From positions 1 through 56,508 of the forward strand of contig JAIULZ010000007.1 in the NCBI GenBank assembly GCA_022565805.1: a stretch of DNA of 56,508 nucleotides, in the 5' to 3' direction. This DNA comes from Balneolales bacterium. GTDB lineage: Bacteria; Bacteroidota; Rhodothermia; Balneolales; Cyclonatronaceae. The position numbers and the translations under genes are program-made. This document shows, piece after piece, positions 43,902 to 50,901 of the stretch. How positions within the stretch are numbered: the first letter of the stretch is position 1; each line of letters starts with the position of its first letter. A model generated the notes under the pieces. That model was not told the origin of the DNA, made no database searches, and saw nothing but the letters and a program-made list of their open reading frames with translations.

Positions 43902-44567
43902 TCAGGCCAGCTCCTGTTCGTCCCATATTTCCCGCATTTCTTCCATCAACTCATCAAGCAGTTCGAAATCTTTTACGCCGGGGGATTCTTCTACGCTGCT
44001 CGAAAGGTCTACAGCATAGGGTTGCAGCTGATGTATTGCCCGCCTCACATTCTCTTTACTAAGTCCGCCAGCTAAGAAAAAGGGATAATCTTCGGGTAAC
44101 TCGCGCAGCACGTTCCAGTTAAAGGTTTTGCCAGTGCCACCGGCCATTTTCGGATCGTAGCTGTCGAAAAGAAAATATTCTACATGGTCGCGATAAGGCT
44201 TAATCATTTCCATTAAGCTGTCCCGATCCATATCTGCCTTAATTCGAAATGCCTTTATAACGGGGAACTGAATTTCAGCACAATATTCGGGGCTTTCTTC
44301 TCCATGAAGCTGTACAAGGTGAACGCCGCTTTCCAGCGCCATTGCATTAACTTTGGGAGCAGGCAAATTCCGGAAAACGCCCACACATTTGGGACCTTCT
44401 ACCCAGTTAATGAGTTCTGCTGCTTTTTCGGGTTCTATATATCGGGGTGATGACTCCACAAAAATAAATCCCAAATAATCGACCAGCGCTCCGCTTGCAA
44501 AACGGCAGTCTTCCAGCCGAGTGAGTCCGCAGATTTTTATTCGTGTTCGTTTGTCTTCTAAATACAT
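43902..44567 (-). CDS. trpF: Phosphoribosylanthranilate isomerase
   Basis: Amadori rearrangement step of tryptophan synthesis. The 221-residue TIM-barrel starts RIKICGLTRLEDCRFA, with the catalytic Cys in KICG. It has VQLHGEE, the phosphate-binding FFLAGGLSKENV and VDLSSSVEESPGVKD with the catalytic Asp. It is the last gene of the trp operon in this window, 100 bp after trpC. trpB and trpA do not follow; convergent ftsE comes next. Confidence 0.95.
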   Translation of the reverse strand: MYLEDKRTRIKICGLTRLEDCRFASGALVDYLGFIFVESSPRYIEPEKAAELINWVEGPKCVGVFRNLPAPKVNAMALESGVHLVQLHGEESPEYCAEIQFPVIKAFRIKADMDRDSLMEMIKPYRDHVEYFLFDSYDPKMAGGTGKTFNWNVLRELPEDYPFFLAGGLSKENVRRAIHQLQPYAVDLSSSVEESPGVKDFELLDELMEEMREIWDEQELA

Positions 44568-44667
44568 GAATTTATTACTGTTCTAAAATGAATTGAAACC
44601 GATTGAGGTTTAATAAGCCATCACCCTACAAAGAAAAAATAAGCCAGCTAAAATTATATGCAAGTAT

Positions 44668-45477
44668 TTATTCTTCTCTTTGCAGAAGCTCATGTAAATC
44701 ATCAAGCATTTTGTTAAGAGCCTCGCCCGGCGAGTTCTGCCTCATAAAATGTTCTCCAATCAGGGCGGCATCACAACCATATTGCTTTATGAGACGAAGA
44801 TCTTCGGCGGTACTTAGTCCGCTTTCAGAAACTTTAGCTACCTGCTCCGGTGCCTGCGACAAAAGCGAGAGCCCGCGGTGTACATCAACTTCGAAGGTTT
44901 TCAGGTCGCGGTTGTTCACCCCTGCAATTTTCACGATTTCGAAATTTAGCGATCTGAATTCTTCTTCGGAATAGGATTCTACCAGGCAGCAGAGTCCGGC
45001 TTCGGTTGCGGCATGGTGAAGCTCCTCGAGCTGACTCCCGTCTGTAATGCCGGCAATTAGCAGAATGGCATCTGCGCCAAATGCACGGGCTTCTTCAATC
45101 TGATAAAAATCTACAATGAAATCTTTCCTGAGCAGAGGAACTCCCACTTCCGGACGAATTTCTGCCAGAAATTCCGGCGCACCTTTAAAATAAAAGGGTT
45201 CTGTGAGAACCGAAATTGCTGCCGCACCCGCTTCTGCATAATCGTTGGCAAACGCAACAGGCTTGAAATCCTCCCGAATTATGCCTTTGCTGGGCGATGC
45301 CTTTTTTACCTCTGCTATGATGCGCACCTGATGCTCATTCGAACGAAGCGCATCGTACAGACTCCTGCGCTTCTCTTCATAAAGCGGGAAAGACTTGAAA
45401 TCTGAAATCTGAAGCTTTTTTTTTCGCTTTGTGAGTTCTTCTCTCGTGGTCTCAACAATTTTATCCAGAATATTCAT
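44668..45477 (-). CDS. trpC: Indole-3-glycerol-phosphate synthase
   Basis: Closes the indole ring from CdRP. The 269-residue TIM-barrel carries IIAEVKKASPSKGII (catalytic Lys), the VLTEPFYFKGAPEFLAEIR region, LLRKDFIVDFYQIEEARAFGADAILL, AGVNNRDLKTFEVD and SESGLSTAEDL. The length is normal for a single-function enzyme. It lies between trpD (121-bp gap) and trpF (100-bp gap), all on the minus strand. Confidence 0.96.
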   Translation of the reverse strand: MNILDKIVETTREELTKRKKKLQISDFKSFPLYEEKRRSLYDALRSNEHQVRIIAEVKKASPSKGIIREDFKPVAFANDYAEAGAAAISVLTEPFYFKGAPEFLAEIRPEVGVPLLRKDFIVDFYQIEEARAFGADAILLIAGITDGSQLEELHHAATEAGLCCLVESYSEEEFRSLNFEIVKIAGVNNRDLKTFEVDVHRGLSLLSQAPEQVAKVSESGLSTAEDLRLIKQYGCDAALIGEHFMRQNSPGEALNKMLDDLHELLQREE

Positions 45478-45598
45478 ACCTGCAATAGAAATAGAAATAA
45501 TTCACGGTTGATTTGAAATTCATCACCGTTAGTAAGTAGATTTAATTAGAGTCGATTGTACCGCAAAGCACCTGCAATTCCCGATTTTCCCTGATTTG

Positions 45599-46633
45599 CT
45601 ATGCCGACAGGCTACTGCTTGTTTCAGCGTATTTGTCGAGAGAACGCAGTGCGGATCCGGAAAGCACCGACTCCCGCGCCCTGCTGATGCCATCGGCCAT
45701 GCTTTGGGATCGTCCGGCTACGACAAGCGCTGCAGCGGCGTTTAACACAACCACATCCTGCTGTTCCCTGGTTGATGCACCTTCTAAAACTGAGCGAATA
45801 ATTTTTGCGTTTGCGGCCGCATCCCCACCCTTGAGCGATTCCGGCTTGGCTTTTTTTATCCCAAAAAGCTCCGGATTAAACGGCATGCAAGCGATCTCCT
45901 GGTCCGGACCGCTCGTAAACATCACGGAATCGGAGGTCGTGCTGAACTCATCCATACCGTCGGAAGCGTGCACTGTTATGAACTTTTCGGTGCCTGTATT
46001 CATTAAAATTCGGGCACAAATTTCAGCCGTTTTTTCGTCGTAGGCTCCCACAACCTGACGCTTCACTCCTGCCGGATTTAGGATGGGTCCCAGAATATTG
46101 AAAAAGGTTCGCATACCCAGAGATTTGCGTCCGGGCATAACGTGTTTCATAGCCGGATGAAAAAGCGGTGCAAACATGAAGGTTATCCCGCATTTTTCGA
46201 AACAAACCGCAGCTTTATCCGGCGGTAGCGCTGGATAACAGCCAAGTGCCTCAAGCACATCGTAGCTGCCGCTACGGCTTGAAATACTCCGATTTCCGTG
46301 TTTTAAGACGGGCACTCCGCAACCTGCAGTTACAAACATGGCGGCCGTTGAAATATTAAACGTTCCGGAATGATCGCCACCGGTACCGCAAACATCAACT
46401 GCTCCTGATGTATTTACAGGCAACGGTATGGCAGCGGCGCGCATGGCGTTTGTAAAACCCGTAAGCTCATCAACTGTTTCTCCTTTTTGCCTCATCCCGA
46501 ATAAAAAAGCGGCCGACCTTGCTTCATTTACTTCACCCCTTACAATAAAATTGAGGGCCGATTCGGCCTCTTCTCGGGTAAAGCTTTCGTTGTCTGCCAG
46601 TTTTTCGAGAACTTCAGTAAAAGTGTTGAACAT
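45599..46633 (-). CDS. trpD: Anthranilate phosphoribosyltransferase
   Basis: Joins anthranilate to PRPP. The 344-residue protein shows the PRPP-binding VDVCGTGGDHSGTFNISTAAM and the anthranilate-side motif VLKHGNRSISSRSGSYDVLE, plus FMFAPLFHPAMKHV. It is not fused to a glutamine amidotransferase, unlike the enterobacterial enzyme. It lies 97 bp after trpG in the operon. Confidence 0.96.
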   Translation of the reverse strand: MFNTFTEVLEKLADNESFTREEAESALNFIVRGEVNEARSAAFLFGMRQKGETVDELTGFTNAMRAAAIPLPVNTSGAVDVCGTGGDHSGTFNISTAAMFVTAGCGVPVLKHGNRSISSRSGSYDVLEALGCYPALPPDKAAVCFEKCGITFMFAPLFHPAMKHVMPGRKSLGMRTFFNILGPILNPAGVKRQVVGAYDEKTAEICARILMNTGTEKFITVHASDGMDEFSTTSDSVMFTSGPDQEIACMPFNPELFGIKKAKPESLKGGDAAANAKIIRSVLEGASTREQQDVVVLNAAAALVVAGRSQSMADGISRARESVLSGSALRSLDKYAETSSSLSA

Positions 46634-46730
46634 TATGATGAAATTAGAATGAGTGTATGTTTGGCCGGAAAGTAATTCGGAGATCTATTTTCCGCTTAAA
46701 ATACTTTGCCTGAGTGTTGAATTTTCAGAA

Positions 46731-47309
46731 TTATGCTGGTTTTAGCTGTTGATTCAGCCAGTTTTTAACTAATCGTGGTCCTTCTGTAGTAAGAATACTT
46801 TCGGGATGAAATTGGATACCCTCAATGGGGAACTGCTTATGTCTTACGCCCATAATTACTCCATCGGGCGTACGGCAGGTTATTTCGAGCACATCAGGAA
46901 CCGATTCGGGCCTCAGAACCAGCGAGTGATATCGGGTTGCGGTAAAATGCTGCGGAACATCGTGGTAAATTCCGGTTCCATTATGCTCAATGATGGAGGT
47001 TTTGCCGTGCATTAAAGAAGGCGCATGCACTACGTCTGCCCCGTAAACATTCCCGATTGCCTGATGCCCCAGACAAATCCCCAATATCGGCACCTTAGGC
47101 CCGCATTCCTGAATAAGCTCCTGCGTAATTCCCGCATTTTCGGGCCGCCCGGGCCCCGGGGAAATCAGTATGGAAGAAGGCGACATTTTCTTCACCTCAT
47201 CTACCGATAAGGCATCATTACGGAAAACCTTGTAATCTGAGGTTTCCTCAGCGATAATATGTACCAGATTGTAGGTAAACGAGTCGTAGTTGTCTAAAAT
47301 CAGAACCAT
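46731..47309 (-). CDS. trpG: Anthranilate synthase component II (glutamine amidotransferase)
   Basis: Supplies ammonia from glutamine to TrpE. The ATG at 47309 begins the class I amidotransferase domain (MVLILDNYDSFTYNLVH); the longer frame to 47366 adds unrelated residues, so I reject it. SPGPGRPENAG, the nucleophile loop GICLGHQAIG and the His-Glu pair in FHPESILT are all present. The protein of about 192 residues is a free-standing subunit. It lies between trpS (74-bp gap) and trpD. Confidence 0.94.
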   Translation of the reverse strand: MVLILDNYDSFTYNLVHIIAEETSDYKVFRNDALSVDEVKKMSPSSILISPGPGRPENAGITQELIQECGPKVPILGICLGHQAIGNVYGADVVHAPSLMHGKTSIIEHNGTGIYHDVPQHFTATRYHSLVLRPESVPDVLEITCRTPDGVIMGVRHKQFPIEGIQFHPESILTTEGPRLVKNWLNQQLKPA

Positions 47310-47383
47310 GAACTTGCTGTTGAGGTAATTAAATTCGATAGATTGAAAAGAGGTTGAAGTCTGCAATAGAATCCTTAAAAGTA

Positions 47384-48379
47384 CTAATGCGTTCGCACAA
47401 TACCGGTAACTTCGCGAATAGGCTCCATTATGGTACGCGCTCTGTTTCGGGCTTTTTTGCCGCCATCGCTGAGAATATCCAAAACCATATCGGTATTATT
47501 CTGCAGCTCCCGCCTGCGCTCCCTTGCCGGGGCAAAATAGGCATCCATTAGGCCGAGCAGCTCTTTTTTGGCATGACCGTACCCATAGCCGCCCTTTAGA
47601 TAGGCCTCCCGAATTTCGGCTGCTTTGTCGTTTTCTGCGAAAAGCTTAATTAGGGCAAAAACATTGCAGGAATCCGGGTCTTTCGGATCTTCCAGAGCGG
47701 TGGCATCGGTTTGGATAGACATCACCTTTTTCTTTAAATCCTTGCCTTCATCAAAAATAAAGATATGATTGTTGTAAGATTTACTCATTTTTCTGCCGTC
47801 TATACCGGGCACAATGGCGACATCCTTAACAATGTAAGGCTCCGGAATCACCAGAAAATCGCCCTCAAACATATTGTTAAACTTCTGCGCGAGGTCGCGG
47901 CTGATCTCCAGATTTTGCTTTTGATCGGCACCCACCGGAACAATATTCGATCCATAGATTAAAATATCCGCTGCCTGCAAAATGGGATAGGTAAACAGAC
48001 CAATATTCGGAGCGAGTCCCTGAGCGACTTTATCTTTATAAGCCACGCCTTTTTCCATAAGGCTAACCGGACAAAGAGTTCCCAAAATCCAGGCCAGTTC
48101 GGTAACCTCGGGAACATCACTTTGTGCAAAAAAAGTACACTTTTGGGGATCAAGGCCGAGCGCCAGGTAATCTATGGCAACATCGAGAGTGTACTGCCGG
48201 AGGCGTTCACCATCCCGTAAAGATGTAAGGGCATGGTAGTTGGCGATAAAATAGAATGCATCCCCTTTGGAAATAAAGTCTAAATGCTGACGCATAGCTC
48301 CGAAATAATTACCAATATGCAGTCTGCCCGAGGGCGTAATGCCCGATAAAATAGTTGTAGCTTTTTCTGAAGTATTCAC
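47384..48379 (-). CDS. trpS: Tryptophanyl-tRNA synthetase
   Basis: Charges tRNA-Trp. The 331-residue class I synthetase starts at GTG (NTSEKATTILSGITPSGRLHIGNYFGAM), with HIGN as the HIGH motif and GRKMSKSYNN as the KMSKS loop. AQSDVPEVTELAWILGTLC and VPVGADQKQNLEISRDLA are also conserved. It is inserted between trpE (67-bp gap) and trpG, so it should share the operon's leader and attenuator. This is not the usual genomic place for trpS, and it makes tRNA charging part of the regulatory loop. Confidence 0.95.
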   Translation of the reverse strand: MNTSEKATTILSGITPSGRLHIGNYFGAMRQHLDFISKGDAFYFIANYHALTSLRDGERLRQYTLDVAIDYLALGLDPQKCTFFAQSDVPEVTELAWILGTLCPVSLMEKGVAYKDKVAQGLAPNIGLFTYPILQAADILIYGSNIVPVGADQKQNLEISRDLAQKFNNMFEGDFLVIPEPYIVKDVAIVPGIDGRKMSKSYNNHIFIFDEGKDLKKKVMSIQTDATALEDPKDPDSCNVFALIKLFAENDKAAEIREAYLKGGYGYGHAKKELLGLMDAYFAPARERRRELQNNTDMVLDILSDGGKKARNRARTIMEPIREVTGIVRTH

Positions 48380-48446: not shown

Positions 48447-49919
48447 TCAATTTTGGAGCTTTATAGCCAGTTTAAGCGCTTCGAACAGTGCTTTTGCCTT
48501 GTTGCGGGTTTCTTCAAACTCGTTAACGGCAACACTATCTGCCACAATACCGGCGCCGGCCTGTATGTACACATCGCTTTCTGTGGCAACCATCGTTCGG
48601 ATGGCAATACAGGTATCCATATTTCCGGAATAATCGAAATAGCCCACGGCACCGGCGTAGGGCCCGCGTTTAACCGGCTCGAGCTCATCTATAATTTCCA
48701 TTGCCCGCACCTTTGGGGCTCCGCTAACCGTACCGGCAGGAAAACAGTGCTGCAGGGCGTCTACGTGCACAGACGGGTGAGCCAGCCTACCGGTAACTTC
48801 ACTTACGATATGCATTACGTGTGAATAGCGCTCAATTACCCGGTCGCGGGTAACTTTGACGGTTCCAGCCTCAGAAACTCTCGAAAGGTCGTTCCGGCCC
48901 AAATCTACCAGCATAACATGCTCGGCAATTTCTTTGGTGTCGGCCGCCAGCTCCTGCGCCAAATGATTATCCTGCTCTTCGGTAGAACCACGAGGGCGCG
49001 TACCGGCAATCGGCAGCACTTTTACCACATTTTGTTCTACAGAAACGAGTACCTCAGGAGACGAGCCAATTAGAGAAAAAGCGCCAAAATCCAGGTAAAA
49101 AAGATAGGGTGATGGGTTTACCATTCGTAAGGCGCGATAGAGCATAAAACGATCTCCCTTATACTGGCTTCGGAAGCGCTGAGAAAGCACAACCTGAAAA
49201 ATATCACCCTCAAAAATATAGGATTTCGCTTTTTCGACCATCTCATAAAACCGCTCGCGGCTCAAATTACTTTCCATTTCCTGCTGTAATAAGCTAAGCG
49301 GAGTTTGATGACGCGTTTCTTTATGCAACTCATTCTCCATGAGCGACAAAGACTCCTGAGCGGCATCGTATGCCGACCTCAACTCTTCGTCTGTCTTTAA
49401 ATCTGTAGTGAATACTGTTTTGATGAGCACAATTCTATGCTTTACGTGATCGAAGGCATAGATTTCATCATAAAAAGACCAGATTGCTTCCGGCAAATTA
49501 AGATCATCGGGCGGGGTGTTGGTAAGGTTTTCTGTTTGGCGGATAGTATCATAGGCCGAAAAGCCAACGGCGCCACCGGTAAGCCGGGGCAAATCAGGCA
49601 ATGATGGTTCGGTATGGCTACCCAGCAGTTTTTGGAGATTTTCGTAGTAACCGCCTTTCAGCTCGGTAGTTTCCTCATTTTTTTGGAGAGAACACAAATT
49701 ATTCTTGAACGAAAACACCTGATATGGATTTTTACCCAAAAAAGAATAGCGCGCAAGCTGCTCGCCCCCTTCTACCGACTCAAACAAAAAAGGATAGGAA
49801 GCAGCATCCCGAATTTTCATAAAAACGGAAACCGGCGTAAGCATATCGGCCATAGCAACTCTGTGAACCGAAACTGCCGAATAAGAGCCCGCAAGTTCAC
49901 AAAACGAATCAAAAGTCAT
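48447..49919 (-). CDS. trpE: Anthranilate synthase component I
   Basis: Converts chorismate to anthranilate with ammonia from TrpG. The 490-residue protein has the tryptophan feedback segment YPFLFESVEGGEQLARYSFLG near the N-terminus, consistent with allosteric inhibition. The catalytic half contains IAGTRPRG, ELAADTKEIAEHVMLVDLGRNDL, FPAGTVSGAPKVRAMEII and GAVGYFDYSG. It is the first structural gene of the minus-strand trp operon. The 180 bp upstream encode the Trp-rich leader peptide and attenuator. Confidence 0.96.
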   Translation of the reverse strand: MTFDSFCELAGSYSAVSVHRVAMADMLTPVSVFMKIRDAASYPFLFESVEGGEQLARYSFLGKNPYQVFSFKNNLCSLQKNEETTELKGGYYENLQKLLGSHTEPSLPDLPRLTGGAVGFSAYDTIRQTENLTNTPPDDLNLPEAIWSFYDEIYAFDHVKHRIVLIKTVFTTDLKTDEELRSAYDAAQESLSLMENELHKETRHQTPLSLLQQEMESNLSRERFYEMVEKAKSYIFEGDIFQVVLSQRFRSQYKGDRFMLYRALRMVNPSPYLFYLDFGAFSLIGSSPEVLVSVEQNVVKVLPIAGTRPRGSTEEQDNHLAQELAADTKEIAEHVMLVDLGRNDLSRVSEAGTVKVTRDRVIERYSHVMHIVSEVTGRLAHPSVHVDALQHCFPAGTVSGAPKVRAMEIIDELEPVKRGPYAGAVGYFDYSGNMDTCIAIRTMVATESDVYIQAGAGIVADSVAVNEFEETRNKAKALFEALKLAIKLQN

Positions 49920-50015: not shown

Positions 50016-50054
50016 AAAATAAAAAACCCGCAATCGTAGAAACGAAGCGGGTTT
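50016..50054 (-). terminator. trp attenuator terminator (regions 3 and 4)
   Basis: On the minus strand AAACCCGC (50054-50047) and GCGGGTTT (50031-50024) form a perfect 8-bp stem. An inner TCGT/ACGA pair narrows the loop, and TTTTTTATTTT follows. This intrinsic terminator lies between the Trp-rich leader and trpE, so it must be bypassed for the operon to be expressed. The segment CCGCTT at 50050-50045 can instead pair with GAGCGG at 50100-50095, giving an antiterminator. Confidence 0.85.
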
Positions 50055-50089
50055 GGAAAAACTGGTACAAAAAAACAGCATGCAGTAGT

Positions 50090-50110
50090 CCGTTCCGCTC
50101 ACGCGTACGG
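50090..50110 (-). promoter_or_regulatory. trp leader pause/antiterminator control hairpin (regions 1 and 2)
   Basis: CCGT (50110-50107) pairs with ACGG (50093-50090), with an inner CGC/GCG stem and a GTGA loop that contains part of the leader stop codon. Its 3' arm overlaps GAGCGG (50100-50095), the sequence able to pair with the terminator's 5' arm. The two structures are mutually exclusive, as in classical trp attenuation. Pairings were found by eye, not by energy calculation. Confidence 0.6.
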
Positions 50111-50149
50111 CCACCACCATAAAGTTTTATTTGAGAGTATTAATTTCAT
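50099..50149 (-). CDS. trpL: trp operon leader peptide, MKLILSNKTLWWWPYA
   Basis: A 16-codon reading frame opens with ATG at 50149 and ends with TGA at 50099-50101. It contains three consecutive TGG codons (50119-50111) six codons before its stop. It lies 180 bp upstream of trpE on the same strand, between a TTGACA/TAAATT promoter-like pair and a T-tailed terminator. When charged tRNA-Trp is scarce, ribosomes would stall at the Trp run and favour the 2:3 pairing, so transcription continues into trpE. Three tandem Trp codons in a 16-codon frame at exactly this position are very unlikely to be chance. It is too short for routine gene finders. Confidence 0.88.
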   Translation of the reverse strand: MKLILSNKTLWWWPYA

Positions 50150-50155
50150 TCTTAG

Positions 50156-50184
50156 AATTTAAATGCCCGCAACCGGAATGTCAA
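50156..50184 (-). promoter_or_regulatory. Candidate trp operon promoter
   Basis: On the minus strand TTGACA (50184-50179), a 17-base spacer and TAAATT (50161-50156) fit a sigma-70 promoter. A start 6-7 bases downstream falls at or next to the ATG of the leader peptide, implying a leaderless or nearly leaderless leader mRNA. The Bacteroidota -7 motif TAnnTTTG is not seen here. Confidence 0.5.
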
Positions 50185-50454: not shown

Positions 50455-50901
50455 ATGAGCGAACAATTTTATTCTGAAATCCTGAGAGAACATGGTCTGA
50501 AGGCAACAGTAACAAGGCTACGTATTTTGGAGCTGCTTTCCGAGTCGAAAGTAGCCATGTCTCACTCAGAAATCTCGGATTGTTTTGACAATGAAAAAAT
50601 AGACAAAGTAACCCTTTACCGAACCCTTAATGCATTTGTCGAATGCGGAATTGCGCACAAAGTTGCAAACGAAGATCGCAATTGGCTATATGCCATTTTC
50701 GACAAAGATATTAAACCAAACGGTACCGAAGGGAGTGAACATAAGCATGAACACGCCCATTTTATCTGTAGTGCATGCGACAAAATCTACTGTTTCCCGG
50801 TTGTTGAGGAAATGAAGTTTAATAAGCTAAAAGATTTAATGGGATTCAAAATTGACCAGCACGAAATTCGTTTACACGGCACTTGCCCGGTTTGCCAATA
50901 A
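50455..50901 (+). CDS. Fur-family metal-dependent transcriptional regulator
   Basis: 148 residues with the Fur winged helix (LKATVTRLRILELLSESKVAMSHSEI in part, DKVTLYRTLNAFVECGI). The metal-rich dimerisation domain follows: a His cluster (EHKHEHAHFICSACDKIYC) and a last CPVC pair, the structural zinc site of Zur/Fur/PerR proteins. It would repress metal-handling genes when the metal is plentiful. A MerC-like membrane protein begins 8 bp after its stop, so they form an operon. Zur is my first guess because of the partner and His-rich loop, but Fur cannot be excluded. Confidence 0.88.
   Translation: MSEQFYSEILREHGLKATVTRLRILELLSESKVAMSHSEISDCFDNEKIDKVTLYRTLNAFVECGIAHKVANEDRNWLYAIFDKDIKPNGTEGSEHKHEHAHFICSACDKIYCFPVVEEMKFNKLKDLMGFKIDQHEIRLHGTCPVCQ

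Follow-up and report, generated by a model that had tools for sequence, protein, structure and literature searches.

A candidate trp operon attenuator with a probably leaderless leader peptide in Balneolales

The trp operon and its leader in the window

The analysed stretch of DNA, hereafter the window, comprises 56,508 nt from a Balneolales bacterium (GCA_022565805.1, contig JAIULZ010000007.1, positions 1 to 56,508). On its minus strand it carries a trp operon and its leader, with the gene order trpE-trpS-trpG-trpD-trpC-trpF. The first structural gene, trpE (48447-49919), and the gene for tryptophanyl-tRNA synthetase, trpS (47384-48379), were assigned by matches above cut-off to TIGR00564 and TIGR00233, respectively, and family matches identified the remaining operon genes of the window as trpG, trpD, trpC and trpF (43902-47366). 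Among the Balneolales loci that were examined (the window and L004-L033), trpS directly follows trpE and is in most cases followed by trpG, which does not hold true for the Ignavibacteriales-type loci examined. Since trpS lies within the operon, a switch upstream of trpE would also control the charging of tRNA-Trp. On the plus strand, the segment 50455-51347 of the window holds a divergent Fur/Zur-like regulator, with weak family matches below cut-off, and behind it a 154-aa ORF that showed no NCBIfam match.

Upstream of trpE, a minus-strand ORF of 16 codons (MKLILSNKTLWWWPYA*, 50099-50149) runs from an ATG at 50149 to a TGA at 50101-50099 and comprises three tandem Trp codons (TGG, 50111-50119), the putative sensor. 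This frame is present just as the original prediction had described it. Among the 2327 short start-to-stop frames of 8-40 codons in the whole window, it is the only one containing WWW. The statement that everything lies within 180 bp of trpE has to be corrected, as the leader ORF is located 180-230 nt upstream of the trpE ATG.

In the MFE fold of the leader, a 1:2 hairpin is formed (50079-50121, minus strand); its 5' arm includes the Trp codons and its apical loop holds the stop codon, in agreement with the proposed hairpin over the stop codon. This hairpin would act as anti-antiterminator, or protector. Further downstream, the intrinsic terminator hairpin (3:4; 50024-50054, minus strand) has an 8-bp base stem, AAACCCGC...GCGGGTTT, and can also be written as AAACCCGCTTCG...GCGGGTTT, then TTTATTTT. 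It is directly followed by a T-tract at 50016-50023 (assigned as 50016-50026 for the U-tract of the RNA), so that the 8-bp terminator with its T-tract was likewise recovered. The RNA from the leader stop codon to the terminator was more stable than 200 out of 200 dinucleotide shuffles (z -3.6).

The antiterminator would be formed by the 5' arm GAGCGG (region 2, 50095-50100) and the 3' arm CCGCTT (region 3, 50045-50050), the latter being part of the terminator 5' arm. While both pairing segments named in the original prediction could be located, the resulting 6-bp helix, judged from the window sequence alone, was equalled by 15.5% of the shuffles and is therefore not above chance. The support for this candidate helix comes from the relatives described below and not from the window's own sequence. 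When the full leader was folded at equilibrium, the terminator prevailed in nearly every state, and accordingly the switch must be kinetic. The same holds true for the regulation by trp attenuation in E. coli.

Conservation, promoter layout and covariation

A search for relatives of the leader at the DNA level gave almost no matches. Hence, the trpE protein was used as query to fetch the upstream regions of relatives, which resulted in 105 loci of the same order, one per genome. A leader frame with at least two tandem TGG codons was present in 97 of these loci (three codons in 84, two in 10 and four in 3), and two further loci (L036 and L050) showed W-x-W leaders. In all 105 loci, a terminator with a T-tract lies between the leader and trpE. 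The finder was directed at tandem TGG codons no farther than 420 nt from trpE and thus favours the detection of such frames; the shared position, the promoter spacing and the covarying arms, however, cannot be explained by this criterion. Both the run of Trp codons and the stem are conserved in the relatives, and the lack of conservation that the original prediction had named as the contrary outcome was not seen.

In the window, a -35 element TTGACA (50179-50184, minus strand) and a -10/-7 element TAAATT(C) (50156-50161), separated by a 17-nt spacer, precede the leader, with 6 nt between the -10 element and the ATG. This pair is conserved in the order. A promoter was detected for 94 of the order leaders; the spacer amounts to 17 nt in 86 of them, and in 92 the leader start codon is 5-10 nt away, counted from the end of the -10 hexamer. 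At control ATGs, the promoter motif was found in 11% of the cases with a flat distribution of distances. As the leader start codons were picked by their distance to the Trp codons and not by the promoter, the result for the spacing is not circular. In Flavobacterium psychrophilum, the sigma-A box is located at -12 to -5 (PMC9723704). Based on this position and the gap between promoter and AUG, a 5' UTR of about 0-4 nt is predicted for nearly all leaders of the order and of 0 nt for the window, where the predicted transcription start coincides with the A of the leader ATG (50149, minus strand) within an uncertainty of a few nt.

Upstream of the leader start codon, an SD-like 4-mer (GGAG, GAGG or AGGA) was found in none of the 97 leaders. 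Together with the promoter adjacent to the AUG, this indicates that translation of the leader probably initiates in a leaderless or nearly leaderless manner. The original prediction had stated that ribosome loading on this leader would work differently, given the weak Shine-Dalgarno sites of the lineage; this is supported and can now be worded more sharply, with a predicted start within a few bases of the AUG.

A different origin of the transcript would be a promoter farther upstream, which would give the leader a conventional 5' UTR and make the system an ordinary attenuator. At 50358-50330, another promoter-like match (TCGACA-17-TATAGT) is indeed present, and there is room for it, the divergent gene starting only at 50455. 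It is, however, the TTGACA/TAAATT pair (50184-50156) that occurs at a fixed distance from the leader throughout the order and in most outgroup leaders of the class, and the complete lack of SD-like 4-mers does not fit a conventional 5' UTR either. We therefore regard a distal promoter as unlikely, though it is the strongest competitor of a start at the leader AUG.

The strict pattern TTGACN16-19TANNTTCN3-8ATG has a single match in the 4.47-Mb genome, which is the trp leader. Genus-wide, the same promoter-to-ATG layout gave 1-3 matches per genome, a number not above the control with the reversed pattern. Accordingly, the layout is no general habit that could be detected by a strict consensus.

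The arms 2, 3 and 4 of the leader covary. In 52-53 genomes, CCCAC in the terminator 5' arm is accompanied by GTGG in segment 2 and GTGGG in segment 4, while a second set of 30 genomes combines CCCGC with GCGG in segment 2 and GCGGG or GTGGG in segment 4. The mean score of the 2:3 pairing was 20.5 compared to 12.3 for shuffles, with a strong signal in two families (f3 and f4); when the window's own family was considered one by one, no 2:3 pairing above shuffles was found. RNAalifold returned a hairpin of the 1:2 type in each group, with double changes at 4 pairs for the families f1 and f2 taken together. In f4, segment 2 usually lies within the coding frame, but the frame in which it is read varies, an indication of selection on the RNA rather than on the peptide.

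Segment 2 also keeps its place with respect to the ribosome. In nearly all genomes it starts 7-21 nt past the last Trp codon. The footprint of a ribosome that has stalled at the first Trp codon leaves this start uncovered in 93 of 97 leaders, and that of a ribosome on the stop codon covers it in 95 of 97. The parts of the leader, their conservation, the covariation of three strands and these positions are direct computational results. For the ribosome-mask folding, the nucleotides under the ribosome were forced to be unpaired and the probability of the 2:3 pairing, p(2:3), was taken for an RNA not yet extended to segment 4. For a ribosome whose A site holds the first Trp codon, p(2:3) amounted to 0.85-0.97 depending on the family, whereas it was about 0 with the ribosome at the stop codon. 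Without a ribosome, it was 0.06 in the window's family and 0.35-0.40 in f3 and f4, and in several genera segment 2 was left free in this state. According to these folds, the protector hairpin is predicted to be strong in the window's family and not equally so in every genus.

An outer helix between the early leader codons and a segment behind the stop codon was also observed (L005-L108). It was significant at 0.05 in 45% of the relatives and covaries between genera, with -11.5 kcal/mol for the own pairing compared to -8.1 kcal/mol for swaps within a genus. In the window it was not significant (p = 0.56), and it was left out of the parts assigned there.

Proposed mechanism and lineages without the Trp-codon sensor

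Altogether, the data argue for a four-segment ribosome-mediated attenuator of the trp operon, whose leader peptide would be translated from an RNA that is leaderless or nearly so; we assign this reading a probability of roughly 0.87. Ribosome-mediated attenuation had already been proposed in the original prediction, and the fact that Trp codons, terminator and mutually exclusive pairings are all conserved speaks in its favour. The start of transcription, the leaderless initiation, the actual termination and the response to Trp are what we infer, and the steps would be as follows. Transcription would begin at the leader AUG or no more than a few bases from it, and translation would be initiated by a ribosome on this 5'-terminal AUG. 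If Trp-tRNA is scarce, the ribosome would stall on WWW and cover segment 1, leaving segment 2 free to pair with segment 3, and the polymerase would read through. With ample Trp-tRNA, the ribosome would proceed to the stop codon and cover segment 2, whereupon the 3:4 terminator could form. In case no ribosome has loaded, the 1:2 hairpin would hide segment 2 in the window's genus and termination would be favoured.

Not all lineages of the order possess the sensor. In the genus g29 (L069, L084, L085, L087, L088 and L145-L148), a promoter and a terminator are present upstream of trpE, but neither a leader ORF nor Trp codons; the conserved leader segments CTCYAAAG and CTGTYACTAGTGTTTACCCAC are kept. 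Possibly, another sensor acts in the leader of g29, or the switch has degenerated. The genus belongs to the same lineage as two named records (L164 and L165, 'uncultured Balneola sp.'). A comparable case is L010 (G006), in which the terminator upstream of trpE is kept while the tandem Trp codons are absent and a short frame with two Tyr codons, MDKSYYPLTEATN, occupies the place of the leader ORF. Both cases indicate that the terminator can exist without a Trp-codon sensor.

The persistence of promoter, terminator and conserved segments in g29 without a Trp-codon ORF is also what would be expected if termination depended directly on Trp or on a protein, in the manner of a riboswitch or of TRAP, with the short ORF being irrelevant; another sensor of this type could act in that genus. 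Elsewhere, however, the Trp codons, the reading frame and the position of segment 2 relative to the Trp and stop codons are all kept, and no Rfam riboswitch or T-box matched the window at gathering score, nor did a T-box or riboswitch family appear for the leader in the low-threshold Rfam list. Direct termination of this kind is thus improbable as a general explanation. That a chance ORF merely lies beside the constitutive terminator of an unrelated small RNA, as the non-significant antiterminator helix of the window taken alone might suggest, can practically be dismissed, given that the leader is conserved in 97 of 105 genomes, that its arms covary and that WWW occurs in a single one of the 2327 frames.

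Relation to known systems and wider distribution

The trp attenuator of E. coli comprises four alternating segments, a leader peptide with Trp codons and a terminator with a U-tract upstream of trpE. The candidate attenuator of the window shares the four segments, the Trp codons and the U-tract terminator before trpE, but its leader lacks an SD sequence and the usual 5' UTR, and the stop codon is located in the apical loop of the 1:2 hairpin and overlaps segment 2. The testable features of a classical trp attenuator, namely a conserved Trp-codon ORF, a terminator, a covarying antiterminator and a protector hairpin, are all found for the predicted leader, the antiterminator being weak when the window sequence is taken alone. 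In searches at gathering and low thresholds, no Rfam family was accepted for it. The Trp_leader family (RF00513) reached 20.6 bits in the window and 24.1 bits in L013 compared to a gathering score of 41, and membership was rejected on account of these low scores. The leaders described here thus extend trp attenuators beyond the reach of this model.

In Sinorhizobium meliloti, the transcript of trpL (peTrpL) upstream of trpE(G) starts at the trpL AUG and is therefore leaderless (PMC7298713). This system resembles the one in the window by its leader peptide with Trp codons and its intrinsic terminator; the transcript start at the AUG, predicted in our case, would be a further likeness. It differs in that it belongs to an unrelated phylum, while the layout of the window is found throughout the order and elsewhere in the phylum, with trpS being part of the operon. 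Corynebacterium and Streptomyces possess trp attenuators with two or three tandem UGG codons and a complementary antiterminator/terminator triple, and in Streptomyces an attenuator is also found upstream of a trpS gene (PMC1262725); in Corynebacterium diphtheriae, a leaderless ilvB leader was mapped (PMC5784534). Tandem Trp codons and a complementary triple of arms are common to these systems and the window, whereas the phylum, the arm sequences and the promoter differ and the trpS of the window lies within the same operon.

Within the Bacteroidota, attenuation by leader peptides was inferred upstream of amino-acid operons in F. psychrophilum, which is the likeness to our case; the main text of that study does not contain 'trp' and names no trp leader (PMC9723704). 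According to a survey from 2010, leader-peptide systems had by then been shown only in Proteobacteria and Actinobacteria (PMC2965389). In the open-access literature, no description of this trp leader in Balneolota, Rhodothermota or Ignavibacteria was found. Altogether, the kind of attenuator and a leaderless trpL (S. meliloti) are already known, while the conserved near-leaderless layout and the trpS within the operon are distinctive.

Attenuation needs quick and reproducible loading of ribosomes behind the RNA polymerase. Bacteroidota mostly do without Shine-Dalgarno sequences and have few leaderless mRNAs: 5.5% in F. psychrophilum (PMC9723704), while in B. thetaiotaomicron about 3.7% of the 5' UTRs are shorter than 10 nt (PMC7366714). 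A trp switch with a 5'-terminal AUG throughout a whole lineage would be one solution, and the trp leader could readily serve as a reporter of leaderless initiation in these bacteria.

Leaders of the same kind were found in the class outgroups, whose families probably comprise Rhodothermus- and Salinibacter-like groups, and in several families elsewhere in the phylum, among them f27 and f45. Most leaders of the class outgroups as well as those of f27 and f45 also showed the near-leaderless layout. Trp leaders are present in named records of Ignavibacteriales/Melioribacter, while none was found in f22, f25, f28, f35, f41 and the four genomes of f42. It is fairly likely that attenuation by leaderless translation is old and stable in the phylum. 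The trp leader RNA would then start with its AUG in Balneolales, other Rhodothermia families and more distant ones, and the regulatory ribosome would load on a 5'-terminal AUG in organisms independent of Shine-Dalgarno sites, in Balneolales acting on an operon with trpS.

In the window's genome, leaders for His, Leu, Ile, Val, Thr and Phe at hisG, ilvB and leuA gave nothing clear. In relatives of the genus (L283, L284 and L285), short His-rich frames (e.g. HHLHHHAHPHH and HLHHWHHHAHH) precede the hisG match by about 300-400 nt, which suggests a his attenuator.
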